Shown here one piece after another: positions 19,273 through 23,391 of a DNA stretch of 50,490 nt; the stretch's first letter is position 1; each line of letters starts with the position of its first letter. The DNA is taken from the NCBI GenBank assembly GCA_017447305.1, contig JAFSNY010000067.1, positions 1 to 50,490 of the forward strand. Reading direction: 5' to 3'. The notes beneath the pieces are model-generated. The model was given only the letters and a program-made list of their open reading frames with translations. It did no database searches and was not told where the DNA came from. Both the position numbers and the translations under genes were made by a program. Source of the stretch: Bacilli bacterium (GTDB lineage: Bacteria; Bacillota_I; Bacilli_A; RFN20; CAG-826).

Positions 19273-19289
19273 ATAAACTAAAATTATCT

Positions 19290-19500
19290 CGTTTGATGAA
19301 AAAGAGGAGTAATAAGATTTCATCTACATAGAGAATCGGGGATGGTGGAAGCCTGATTAGATGAGCTTATGAAGGTCGCTTTGGAAAACGAAGTAAGTGT
19401 CCACTTAAGTGACATAAATGAGCGTCTTCTACTGAGTAGAAGGAAATAAGGTGGTACCGCGCATAACATGCGTCCTTATGAAAGGATGCTTTTTATTACT
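19290..19500 (+). promoter_or_regulatory. T-box leader of valS (specifier GTC)
   Basis: The leader contains the T-box proper AAGGTGGTACCGCG (about 19448-19461), whose central residues pair with the acceptor end of uncharged tRNA. Stem I shows GAGTAATAAG and the distal loop motif CGGGGATGGTGGAAGCC. The likely specifier is GTC (19375-19377), a valine codon followed by a purine, matching the valS gene. The terminator is GCGTCCTT/AAGGATGC (19470-19477/19482-19489) followed by TTTTTATT. Uncharged tRNA-Val would favour the antiterminator and turn on valS. Confidence 0.93.
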
Positions 19501-19519: not shown

Positions 19520-22111
19520 ATGTTAGATAAAAGATATAATCCAAAAAGTGTCGAAGAAGGAAAATACGAGAAGTGGAAAAAGGCTGGATATTTCACCGCG
19601 GGTGATAAGTCTAAGCAAGCTTTCTCTATGGTTATTCCTCCTCCAAATGTCACTGGTAAATTACATTTAGGTCACGCTTGGGATACAACTATTCAAGATA
19701 TCATCGCCCGTTATAAAAAGATGAAGGGATATGATGTCTTATGGGTTCCAGGTATGGACCACGCGGGAATCGCAACCCAAGCTAAAGTCATGGAAAGACT
19801 AAAAAAAATGGGCGTTGATGTCACAAAAATCACCCGTGAAGAATTCTTAAAAGAAGCATGGGGATGGAAAGATGAATACGCAGCGTCAATTCACTCTCAA
19901 TGGGCAAAACTAGGTTTAACTCTTGATTACACCAGAGAAAGATTCACTCTTGATGAAGGATTAAACTACGCAGTTAGAACAGTCTTTACTCGTTTATATA
20001 AAAAAGGTCTCATCTATCAAGGTGAAAGAATCATCAACTGGGATCCAGTTCAAAAGACCGCGTTAAGTAATATCGAAGTTATTCACCAAGATGACCACGG
20101 ATACATGTATTATTTCAAATACCATATCGTTGGAAGTGATGATTATTTACTCGTCGCTACAACAAGGCCTGAAACGATGTTTGGTGATGTCTGTGTTGTC
20201 GTTAATCCAAAGGATGAAAGATACACAAAATATATCGGAATGAAAGTCATTAACCCTGCGAATGATGAAATTATTCCGATTATTGGGGATGAATATGTCG
20301 ATATCGAATTTGGCACAGGAGCGATGAAATGTACACCCGCTCACGACCCAAATGACTTTGTCATCGGTGAAAAATATCATTTCCCAAAACCAATTATCAT
20401 GAATAAAGATGCGACGATGAACGAAAAATGCGGCAAATACCAAGGTATGGATCGATTTGTTTGTCGTGAAGCTTTATTAAAAGATATCGAAGCTAAAGGT
20501 GATTTCGTGAAAAAAGAAGAAATAGTTCACCCTGTCGGACATAGTGAAAGAAGTAACGCTGTTGTCGAACCAATGTTATCAAAACAGTGGTTCGTTAAGA
20601 TGGAATCTTTAGCGAAGCATTCTTTAGATAACCAAAAGAGTAAAGGAAAGGTTAGCTTCATTCCTCCTAGATTTGAAAATACCTTCACCAACTGGATGGA
20701 AAACGTTGAAGATTGGTGCATTTCTCGTCAACTCTGGTGGGGTCACCGCATTCCTGCTTACTACCATAAGAAGACAAATGAAGTCTATGTTGATGTTAAC
20801 CCACCTGAAGATATAGAGAACTATGTTCAAGATGAAGATGTTTTAGACACTTGGTTCTCAAGCGCTCTTTGGCCATTTTCCACTTTAGGTTGGCCAGAAA
20901 AAACTCCAGATTTAGAAAGATATTTCCCAACTAATATCCTTTCAACTGGTTACGATATCATTTTCTTCTGGGTGTCGAGAATGATCTTCCAAAGCTTAGA
21001 GATGAATGATATCCGTCCATTCGATAATGTTTTAATTCATGGTTTAGTCCGTGATGAACAAGGCAGAAAGATGTCAAAATCTCTTGGAAACGGGATTGAT
21101 CCAATGGATGTTATAGACCGTCATGGTGTTGATGCGCTTCGTTATTTCTTAACAACGAATTCCACCCCTGGACAAGATATGAGATATATCGAAGAAAAGG
21201 TCGTTTCCGCCTCTAATTATCTTAATAAAATATGGAATTCTGCGAGATACGTTTTAAGTGTTTTAGGAGATGACTTCAGAGAAGAAAAACTCGATACAAA
21301 GAGACTTTCTCCTTTAGATAACTGGCTCATTAATAAACTAATGGACACGATCAAGGGTGTCAGTGAAGCAATGGAAAGATACGATTTTAACTCCGCTTCC
21401 TCATACTTATATAACTTCGTCTATGATGATTTCTGCTCTAACTATCTAGAGATGAGCAAAGTCAGTTTAAACGGTGATGATGAAGAGATGAAAATGATGA
21501 CAAAACAAGTCCTTATTTTCACCTTAAAAAACATCATCAAACTCATTTATCCATACACTCCATTCATCGCTGAAGAGATGTATTTAAACCTTCCAAATCA
21601 TTTAGAATCGATCATGCTTGAAACATATCCTGAATATGATGAATCAATGATAAACCTTAAAGCGAATAAAGAAGTCGAATTATTGTTCGATTTCATTAAA
21701 GATTCAAGAACATACAAGATTGAAAATAAGCTCGCTCCAAATGAGAAAATCGCCATTGCAATTAACCTTCGTATTCCAGTCTTTAATGGATTTATGGCCT
21801 ACTTAAGTCGCTTCACTTTCGCTAAGGAAATAAAAGAAGAAAAAGATATTATGAATATTCAAGGTCATCTATATGTTCACGATGATGGCGACATGGTTAT
21901 TATCAACGAAGTATCAAACGATGAAATTCTTTTAAAACTAAATAAAGAAATCGAATTTGAAGAAAATGAAATAAGAAGATGTGAGGGAATGCTCAACAAT
22001 CCAAACTTTGTGAGCAAAGCGCCAAAAGAGAAAGTTGATGCTGAAAGAAACAAACTTAAACAGCATCAAGATAACCTTGCATCATTATTAGAAAAGAAAG
22101 CAAAACTTTAA
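19520..22111 (+). CDS. valS: Valine--tRNA ligase
   Basis: This 863-residue class I synthetase attaches valine to tRNA-Val. Signatures are PPPNVTGKLHLGHAWD (HIGH-type motif, about 37-50), the editing domain (TTRPETMFGDVCVVVNP and the GTGAMKCTPAHDPNDF segment), and RKMSKSLGNG (KMSKS). Zinc-site residues seen in some ValRS are not obvious. The C-terminal 65 residues form the coiled-coil arm that grips the tRNA. Length is normal. It has a strong AAAGGAGGATAAA ribosome site, is governed by the T-box upstream, and ends at a strong terminator, so it forms its own unit. Confidence 0.97.
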   Translation: MLDKRYNPKSVEEGKYEKWKKAGYFTAGDKSKQAFSMVIPPPNVTGKLHLGHAWDTTIQDIIARYKKMKGYDVLWVPGMDHAGIATQAKVMERLKKMGVDVTKITREEFLKEAWGWKDEYAASIHSQWAKLGLTLDYTRERFTLDEGLNYAVRTVFTRLYKKGLIYQGERIINWDPVQKTALSNIEVIHQDDHGYMYYFKYHIVGSDDYLLVATTRPETMFGDVCVVVNPKDERYTKYIGMKVINPANDEIIPIIGDEYVDIEFGTGAMKCTPAHDPNDFVIGEKYHFPKPIIMNKDATMNEKCGKYQGMDRFVCREALLKDIEAKGDFVKKEEIVHPVGHSERSNAVVEPMLSKQWFVKMESLAKHSLDNQKSKGKVSFIPPRFENTFTNWMENVEDWCISRQLWWGHRIPAYYHKKTNEVYVDVNPPEDIENYVQDEDVLDTWFSSALWPFSTLGWPEKTPDLERYFPTNILSTGYDIIFFWVSRMIFQSLEMNDIRPFDNVLIHGLVRDEQGRKMSKSLGNGIDPMDVIDRHGVDALRYFLTTNSTPGQDMRYIEEKVVSASNYLNKIWNSARYVLSVLGDDFREEKLDTKRLSPLDNWLINKLMDTIKGVSEAMERYDFNSASSYLYNFVYDDFCSNYLEMSKVSLNGDDEEMKMMTKQVLIFTLKNIIKLIYPYTPFIAEEMYLNLPNHLESIMLETYPEYDESMINLKANKEVELLFDFIKDSRTYKIENKLAPNEKIAIAINLRIPVFNGFMAYLSRFTFAKEIKEEKDIMNIQGHLYVHDDGDMVIINEVSNDEILLKLNKEIEFEENEIRRCEGMLNNPNFVSKAPKEKVDAERNKLKQHQDNLASLLEKKAKL

Positions 22112-22130
22112 TAATCAACAACAAATTAAG

Positions 22131-22159
22131 AATTCGCTTCATTTGAGGCGAATTTTTTT
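22131..22159 (+). terminator. Terminator after valS
   Basis: AATTCGC (22131-22137) pairs with GCGAATT (22148-22154), followed by a run of seven Ts. Confidence 0.88.
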
Positions 22160-22195
22160 ATTTACTAGTAAATAACTTATCTCTTTAGAAAAAAA

Positions 22196-22240
22196 GTGAA
22201 AAAATTTTGGCGAAAAATCGCTATTTCACACATATATATA
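22196..22240 (+). promoter_or_regulatory. Nested inverted repeat and -10 of the peptide-radC unit
   Basis: GTGAAA (22196-22201) and TTTCAC (22224-22229) flank GCGA-AAAA-TCGC (22210-22221), a nested palindrome lying where the -35 should be. A TATATA -10 (22233-22238 or 22235-22240) follows. No convincing -35 is present, which suggests control by a DNA-binding protein. Transcription would start near 22245. Confidence 0.45.
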
Positions 22241-22244
22241 AGTA

Positions 22245-22311
22245 GGGGACCTTCCTATAAACAAAACACTTTTTCTTGGATGCCATGATTAAATCCTACT
22301 ATCAGGTCCCC
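22245..22311 (+). promoter_or_regulatory. Structured 5' leader of the peptide-radC unit
   Basis: GGGGACCT (22245-22252) pairs perfectly with AGGTCCCC (22304-22311), enclosing about 50 nt in which GGAT (22278-22281) can pair with ATCC (22293-22296). An 8-bp GC-rich stem at the very start of the message, in this AT-rich DNA, is unlikely by chance. No known riboswitch class is recognised; it may be a stability element, a protein site or an unknown aptamer. The ribosome site GAGGAGG follows at 22337-22343. Confidence 0.5.
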
Positions 22312-22350
22312 TGTTCGTATCAATTAGTTTAATTAAGAGGAGGTAAAAAC

Positions 22351-22527
22351 ATGCGAAAACTAAATGAGTCAGAACTTAAAAATACCTATGCAGGTGAAGC
22401 TCTTACATTAACCGCGGTTATGGCGATTATGGCAGTGGCAGTTATGGCGGTCATCGTTTATAAGTTATTTATAAGTGATAAAGGTAACGCCTCTGTTCCA
22501 GGCGGCTGGAAGTTTACCTGGTCTTAA
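22351..22527 (+). CDS. 58-residue peptide with double-glycine-type leader
   Basis: A strong ribosome site (AAGAGGAGGTAAAAAC) precedes the ATG. The first 15 residues, MRKLNESELKNTYAG, fit the double-glycine leader consensus of class II bacteriocins and signalling peptides: Leu -12, Glu -8, Leu -7, small residue -2 and Gly -1. The mature part would be one hydrophobic helix (ALTLTAVMAIMAVAVMAVIV) and a short tail ending VPGGWKFTWS. This suggests export and cleavage by a C39-peptidase ABC transporter, though none is in the window. Its stop overlaps the radC start (TAATG). It could also be a plain small membrane protein; no homolog is recognised. Confidence 0.7.
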   Translation: MRKLNESELKNTYAGEALTLTAVMAIMAVAVMAVIVYKLFISDKGNASVPGGWKFTWS

Positions 22528-23201
22528 TGGGGATAAAAGATTTACCAAGTAACGAAAAGCCACGAGAAAAGTTAATGCGATATGGAGTGGAGTCTCTTTC
22601 AAATGTTGAGCTGATCACCATCATCATTGGAAGTGGTACAAAAAATAACTCCGCGATGGATGTTGCCTATAATCTACTTAGGAATAAAGGTTTATTAAGT
22701 TTATCCCACATTCCTTATGAAGATTACATGAAGATTTCCGGCATTAAAAAAGCCAAAGCCCTAATGCTTGCGTCCATTTTTGAACTATATCGAAGATTAT
22801 CTACCCTTCATAGTGACCTTGAGAGTAACGAGGTGACATCCTTAAATGTCTATCATCGTTATCGTGATTATCTTAAAGGAGAAGCACAAGAAATACTCGG
22901 GGTCCTTATCTTAGATAAAAACAAACAAATAATCACAGAAAAGATTATTTATAAAGGCACGAAAAACTATATAAAAACTTCATCAAGAGATATATTAAAG
23001 CTCCTTGTCTTAAAGGAAGGAACATATTTCTATCTTTACCATAATCATCCAGATGGAAGCCTTGAACCAAGCGATAGTGACATTGTCTTCACCGAGTCAT
23101 TAATACAGGAAACGAGAAAGTATGGTTTTATCCTTCTTGATCACTTAATCATTACAGAAAATGGCTATTTTTCTTTCGCTAGTGGAGGTATTTCTCAGTA
23201 A
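22527..23201 (+). CDS. radC: RadC/MPN domain protein
   Basis: This 224-residue protein has the RadC layout: helix-hairpin-helix near the N-terminus (residues about 20-75, ending ISGIKKAKALMLASIFELYRR) and a JAMM metalloprotease-like domain with HNHPDGSLEPSDSD (His-x-His...Ser...Asp), a metal site. Despite the name, a role in DNA repair is not supported, and its activity is unknown; in streptococci it is competence-induced. The start overlaps the stop of the 58-residue peptide gene and has no ribosome site of its own, so its translation depends on that ORF. No terminator is obvious after it. Confidence 0.92.
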   Translation: MGIKDLPSNEKPREKLMRYGVESLSNVELITIIIGSGTKNNSAMDVAYNLLRNKGLLSLSHIPYEDYMKISGIKKAKALMLASIFELYRRLSTLHSDLESNEVTSLNVYHRYRDYLKGEAQEILGVLILDKNKQIITEKIIYKGTKNYIKTSSRDILKLLVLKEGTYFYLYHNHPDGSLEPSDSDIVFTESLIQETRKYGFILLDHLIITENGYFSFASGGISQ

Positions 23202-23286: not shown

Positions 23287-23391
23287 GTTGTCGCCTCACT
23301 AGCTACAACCGCATAGAAAAGGTTTTTCAAAACTTAACATAGTTACCTTCATAGCGAGTCCTTAGTGAAATCTTTAAGAAGGAGGGACATT
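23287..23391 (+). promoter_or_regulatory. L21 leader (ribosomal protein autoregulatory RNA)
   Basis: The roughly 105-nt leader (TGTCGCCTCACTAGC... ...CATAGCGAGTCCTTAGTG...) sits just before rplU, as the L21 leader does in Firmicutes. CACTAG/CTTAGTG-type pairing and GTTTTTCAAAACTTAAC give stems. The motif is thought to let L21 repress its own operon. The call rests mainly on position and general form. Confidence 0.6.

Follow-up and report, generated by a model that had tools for sequence, protein, structure and literature searches.

Peptides made with a double-glycine (GG) leader and the C39 exporters that handle them are usually regarded as optional weapons or signals. Small, bitopic Pf3-type coat proteins insert N-out/C-in without an export ATPase and undergo no leader cleavage. 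The PCAT/AMS transporters PCAT1, ComA and LahT are built on a C39-TM architecture with a C39 catalytic triad, and their GG-leader substrates share an L-12, E-8, L-7, G-1 consensus. A conserved GG-leader protein that is not a bacteriocin has also been described: MAM of Faecalibacterium carries I/V-12, E-8, M-7 and GG, co-occurs with a PCAT and is placed in the cell envelope (PMC12184118). Here we describe an unannotated 58-residue peptide gene in a 50,490-nucleotide stretch of contig JAFSNY010000067.1 (the window), from a Bacilli bacterium of GTDB order RFN20, which is reported to be close to Mycoplasmatales and partly peptidoglycan-deficient (PMC10868615). Its leader follows the PCAT/AMS substrate consensus, and the C39 protein of the order shares the fold, triad and C39-TM architecture of these transporters. 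Unlike them, however, the order's protein lacks an ATPase domain, some families lack the membrane domain as well, and the precursor and protease genes lie apart, both as core genes. Like MAM, the window peptide is a conserved GG-leader protein tied to a PCAT-type partner, but MAM is larger, is confined to one group and has a PCAT that is treated as an exporter. In the open-access literature, we found no description of the peptide or of its tie to radC or to mycoplasma C39 exporters. Genomes (G), loci (L), families (f) and genera (g) carry anonymous labels below; G000 is the genome of the window.

The gene order in the window is valS, a probable terminator, the 58-aa ORF, radC and rplU, all on the forward strand. 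valS (19520-22111), the conserved upstream neighbour of the peptide gene, is a separately regulated unit, given its own T-box leader (19287-19480; Rfam RF00230, 109 bits). A forward-strand hairpin with a T run 3' of valS (22128-22160; inverted repeat 22128-22141/22144-22157, then TTTTTTT) is probably an intrinsic terminator that parts valS from the peptide-radC unit. The peptide ORF (22351-22527) is preceded by the Shine-Dalgarno (SD) sequence AGGAGG at 22338-22343, seven bases before the ATG, which bears out the strong ribosome site of the original prediction; 60/66 distinct orthologues have an SD of 5-6 nt. The claim of a TAATG junction with a radC that has no ribosome site of its own likewise held in the window: the overlap lies at 22525-22529, the peptide stop TAA (22525-22527) and the radC ATG (22527) have one base in common, and no SD is found ahead of radC in the window sequence. 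The same junction is present in 27/66 distinct orthologues. radC itself (22527-23201) scored 145.5 bits with NCBIfam TIGR00608, over the cut-off, and 168.8 against 180 with the PRK00024 model. The L21 leader of rplU (23297-23372, forward strand; Rfam RF00559) marks the start of the next unit.

The original prediction had also placed a nested palindrome and a leader hairpin upstream of the ORF. The 9-nt inverted repeat exists, with arms AGGGGACCT at 22244-22252 and AGGTCCCCT at 22304-22312 (span 22244-22312, no strand assigned), but stands at chance level, as 128/1000 shuffles hold one at least as long, and the RNA upstream of the ORF folds with an unremarkable z of only -1.64. Rfam gave no match over the leader RNA of the peptide in the window, where its matches are the valS T-box and the L21 leader only. 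Relatives of the window show a further arrangement that is not seen in the window itself. An anti-SD (CCTCC/CTCCT) occurs upstream of the peptide in 24/62 of their loci versus 3.6 expected (e.g. L021, L012, L030 and L082), mostly 13-27 nt ahead of the peptide's ribosome site; the SD bases are paired in the predicted fold in 54/62 loci, and in several relatives a terminator-like hairpin that follows valS has the SD in its 3' arm.

The GG-type leader, MRKLNESELKNTYAG (22351-22395, forward strand), has L, E, L, A and G at -12, -8, -7, -2 and -1, in keeping with the C39/PCAT consensus fit that had been proposed. This pattern is kept among 66 distinct orthologues (G-1 in 66/66, L/M-12 in 62/66, E-8 in 60/66 and M/L-7 in 53/66), while the other leader positions drift. 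In family f1, V or P is common at -2 in place of the canonical G/A/S; the canonical GG at -2/-1 is found in most f2, f3 and f19 peptides. At -4, where a hydrophobic residue is expected, the window has an off-consensus T, and I, V or L occur there in a minority of the 66 orthologues. A hydrophobic -4 is not strictly required, because the C39 domain LahT150 fully processed a V-4T substrate (PMC6363468).

The mature peptide, EALTLTAVMAIMAVAVMAVIVYKLFISDKGNASVPGGWKFTWS (22396-22524, forward strand), aligns as a hydrophobic helix followed by (S)xKGxxxxPGGWxFxW, probably a beta hairpin. AlphaFold2 placed a helix at 6-41 and strands at 45-49 and 53-57 of the whole peptide, with a mean pLDDT of 76 and about 64 in the hairpin. 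The mature N-terminus is uncharged or acidic and K/R residues follow the helix, while the leader holds N-terminal K/R residues. No significant match was obtained for the window peptide against Pfam, NCBIfam or PDB profiles. A Gly directly ahead of a long hydrophobic stretch would also suit a pilin-like substrate of a prepilin peptidase; given that there is no Glu at +5 and no basic run before the Gly, and that the leader matches the C39 consensus, we consider this highly improbable.

The search for homologues in related genomes that the original prediction had proposed recovered the peptide in 139/146 genomes of the window's family (98/99 of high quality) and in 184/192 genomes of its order (148/150 of high quality), across seven families and nearly always as one copy per genome. 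The 58-aa peptide gene is a core gene of the order. valS lies ahead of it in 54/63 distinct loci. The near relatives, Erysipelotrichaceae bacterium RUG14566 and Bacillales bacterium UBA3835, are both uncultured MAGs, and a scan of the named close-relative genomes gave three loci only. The small size of the genomes and the way the families are arranged are in line with order RFN20. Purifying selection is strong, with a dN/dS of 0.02-0.1 in close pairs; the leader itself, for which a check of such selection had been proposed, is less constrained than the mature part in most pairwise comparisons.

This is the reverse of what is expected for a bacteriocin, which the original prediction had named along with a pheromone as a possible product; one vertically kept copy with a mature part slower than its leader speaks against both. 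A class II bacteriocin-like peptide kept for competition would account for the GG leader, and the class IIb bacteriocins of TIGR03949 (lactobin A/cerein 7B) likewise have a hydrophobic core after it. The window peptide itself does not match TIGR03949 (curated cut-off 21.5 bits). Matches among homologues are weak: a single one passes the cut-off, narrowly (22.3 against 21.5 bits), and runs from the leader into the beginning of the hydrophobic region. Some f19 genomes carry tandem copies. Unlike class IIb bacteriocins, however, this is a single peptide, nearly universal across an order, in which the mature part is the most constrained; no immunity gene was seen beside it, its neighbours are housekeeping genes, and two genera have leaderless forms. 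We therefore regard a role in competition as quite improbable.

Whether the peptide acts with RadC was assessed from the distribution of both genes. radC follows the peptide in 59/63 distinct loci, and the pair stays together away from valS and rplU (L123, L124 and L128) or inverted between them (L125), which indicates that the shared mRNA is old. The peptide does not always precede radC: in G017, G067 and G112 rplU follows it and radC is missing from the locus, and no radC adjoins the mycoplasma-like homologues. Furthermore, radC was found in only 153/192 order genomes (124/150 of high quality), fewer than the peptide. A functional dependence between the two is not indicated, contrary to the proposed peptide-RadC unit, and radC would be a long-lived neighbour on a common mRNA, not a functional partner. 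The supposed link to competence fared no better, with ComEC found in 128/192 order genomes (101/150 of high quality), although the model scored weakly here and some divergent copies may have escaped it.

The alternative of a conserved signal, pheromone or competence-related, that is tied to RadC would draw on the ComC/CSP-like leader, on the common mRNA, on the pair staying together when moved or inverted, and on streptococci, where radC belongs to the core SigX regulon (PMC5069739). Against this, the peptide is kept where radC was not found and where ComEC was not found, its mature sequence is conserved across genera, whereas pheromones usually diversify, and the C39 protein has no export ATPase in the same chain. 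We judge such a signal unlikely. Other arrangements were seen at radC. G016 has four RadC hits (on C13, C1 and C146), the peptide-linked copy being at C146, and in f19 two to three diverged tandem peptide copies precede radC (L141, L143 and L145). In f24 and some f19 genomes (L129, L130, L138, L139, L148 and L149), a gene for a small membrane protein of 120-150 aa, possibly SPOR/SpoIIB-like, lies between peptide and radC.

A C39 domain was found in 134/146 genomes of the window's family, mostly in an ORF of ~400 aa just upstream of ybeY(-cdd-era). In the window's genome the C39 gene comes after dnaJ and is itself followed by the contig end; in relatives the next gene after C39-TM is ybeY, and three g24 genomes (L049-L051) have valS-peptide-radC-rplU-ysxB-rpmA-C39-ybeY in a row. 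The catalytic triad C, H, D is invariant in 26/26 sequences, and the oxyanion Q is present in 23/26. AlphaFold2 modelled the protein with a pLDDT of 89 as C39 plus six long helices with nothing after them, and its best PDB folds in Foldseek are PCAT1 (E 1.7e-12). Consistent with this, Pfam recovered C39 and no NBD/ATPase domain, and the chain, 394 aa long, does not extend beyond the membrane domain. The C39-peptidase gene that the original prediction called for is thus present in the genome; by its predicted domains, with the NBD missing from the same chain, it does not encode an ABC transporter. The exporter of the order carries no motor in cis, while its protease, with the triad kept, is intact. 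C39 was not found in 6/99 high-quality family genomes; in one of these, G138, a C39-TM ORF does exist, but its Pfam score was too low.

In one f4 genome (G172, L188:1229-3316), a C39-TM gene is followed by an opposite-strand 262-aa ORF that resembles an ABC ATPase and is possibly a separate NBD. Some genomes of the family also carry a full-size C39-ABC gene (about 725 aa). These genes were set aside as partners of the peptide, as their occurrence is patchy and they form a separate clade (100/100); the C39 tree is otherwise poorly resolved. These patchy transporters occur at L039 and its relatives L036-L043, at L039 beside a radical-SAM/SPASM-like gene, and the L036-L043 loci are probably RiPP clusters unrelated to the core peptide.

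Across the class, the same slot at ybeY holds a C39 gene in f2, f3, f5, f7, f19, f21, f10 and f24, in forms of decreasing size: C39-ABC of ~690 aa (f19, f21 and f10), C39 with six TM helices of ~400 aa, C39 with one C-terminal hydrophobic helix read from sequence (f7, 171-176 aa), and C39 alone (about 120-132 aa in f5, 124-141 aa in f24). A profile widened with f2-f7, f19 and f24 members, used for the class-wide search, recovered the peptide in the f19 genomes and in a number of those of f24, either in the interval from valS to radC-mreC or immediately ahead of radC. Two f24 genera, g133 (G321 and G386) and g206 (G489 and G497), have leaderless orthologues of ~40 aa (MTTSSILMFV... and MLSLYLAGL...) that begin near the cleavage point, with an in-frame stop just upstream, and the C39 HMM gave nothing significant in these genomes; the match between leader loss and C39 loss rests on these two genera. 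As in leaderless bacteriocins, these forms start directly with the hydrophobic core, but their orthologues have a leader and apparently serve a housekeeping role. In f16 (L152-L162), most genomes sampled have C39-ABC; in the genomes inspected, one or two GG-leader peptides come next, with the cores WVGxGIGAxxxFLSGIIDGxxHPxxC and SITGSLVNAxxxxxKxxxxxGxxLGSxxRRxxxxxxC, and L154 has cdd and era downstream. The f16 peptides match through the leader only and were not counted as orthologues.

The paired absence of leader and detectable C39 in two genera also speaks against a peptide that is never cut. On that rival view, the whole chain would remain as a small membrane protein, the 'leader' being its cytoplasmic N-terminus, and the C39 protein would serve another substrate: the hydrophobic helix suits a bitopic protein, cleavage is a prediction from sequence, and G457 keeps the leader although the HMM found no C39 there. 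It would not be expected, however, that L-12, E-8, L/M-7 and G-1 should persist amid drift, or that most f2, f3 and f19 peptides should carry GG. We consider the uncleaved form unlikely.

Genomes of the mycoplasma-like families f21 and f10, which use in-frame TGA, encode peptides of roughly 70-140 aa with GG or PG leaders, many beside valS or directly before rplU, and C39-ABC lies directly before ybeY-era in the two f21/f10 loci read. The peptides share the leader and the hydrophobic stretch, and in f21 there is also a KGxIKxxxxxxxW-type motif. Matches to a profile from which these peptides had been left out were weak (E 6e-5 to 0.07), most of the inspected ones adjoining valS or rplU; later strong E-values are not independent, because that profile includes some mycoplasma-like peptides. 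A weak f21 hit (G482 C1:6562) was taken as chance and replaced by G482 C1:224049, beside rplU. The case for homology comes from gene order, the leader and a short motif near the C-terminus; common descent with the order's peptides is likely, and weakest for f10.

Our favoured reading, which we hold to be reasonably probable, is that the gene encodes a membrane peptide of ancient origin and housekeeping role, that a C39 protease matures it, and that it came to do without ATP-driven export. The vertically inherited microprotein would be made as a GG-leader precursor, and the co-conserved protease, usually encoded just upstream of ybeY, would recognise the leader and cut after Gly15. In the window's order this protease would be a PCAT that has kept C39 and six TM helices and lost its NBD, so that the peptide would mature without ATP-driven export in cis. 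Once freed of the leader and its N-terminal K/R, the hydrophobic mature part would be able to insert into the membrane, probably in an N-out/C-in orientation that keeps the K/R residues downstream of the helix on the inner side; such insertion is plausible because of the positive-inside rule and the uncharged or acidic start. The expected topology recalls Pf3-type coat proteins, by analogy only. Leader removal by C39 is the step that the sequences best support. What has been retained seems to be cleavage and not ATP-driven export: leader and protease persist although the ATPase domain (in f5 and f24 also the membrane domain) has disappeared, and the leaderless forms come from genomes in which C39 was not found. 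Its vertical inheritance as one copy under strong constraint argues for a housekeeping role, and a trimming enzyme kept after loss of the export motor points to a housekeeping membrane peptide, not an antibiotic or mating signal. To a wider scenario we give an even chance: that a class-wide membrane microprotein, already present in the common ancestor of Erysipelotrichia-like lineages, the window's order and mycoplasmas, is the native substrate of the ybeY-side C39 exporter, that this exporter was cut back in one lineage after another to a bare leader protease, and that the leader was lost where the protease was lost.

Peptide and C39 protein are here core genes of a whole uncultured order, and probably of mycoplasmas too, where the C39 exporter would gain a candidate substrate if the pair holds. 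The series from C39-ABC through C39 with TM helices and C39 alone to a leaderless peptide without C39 offers a natural dissection of the roles of leader, protease and ATPase. An unannotated ORF thereby becomes a testable housekeeping system in reduced, partly wall-less cells.
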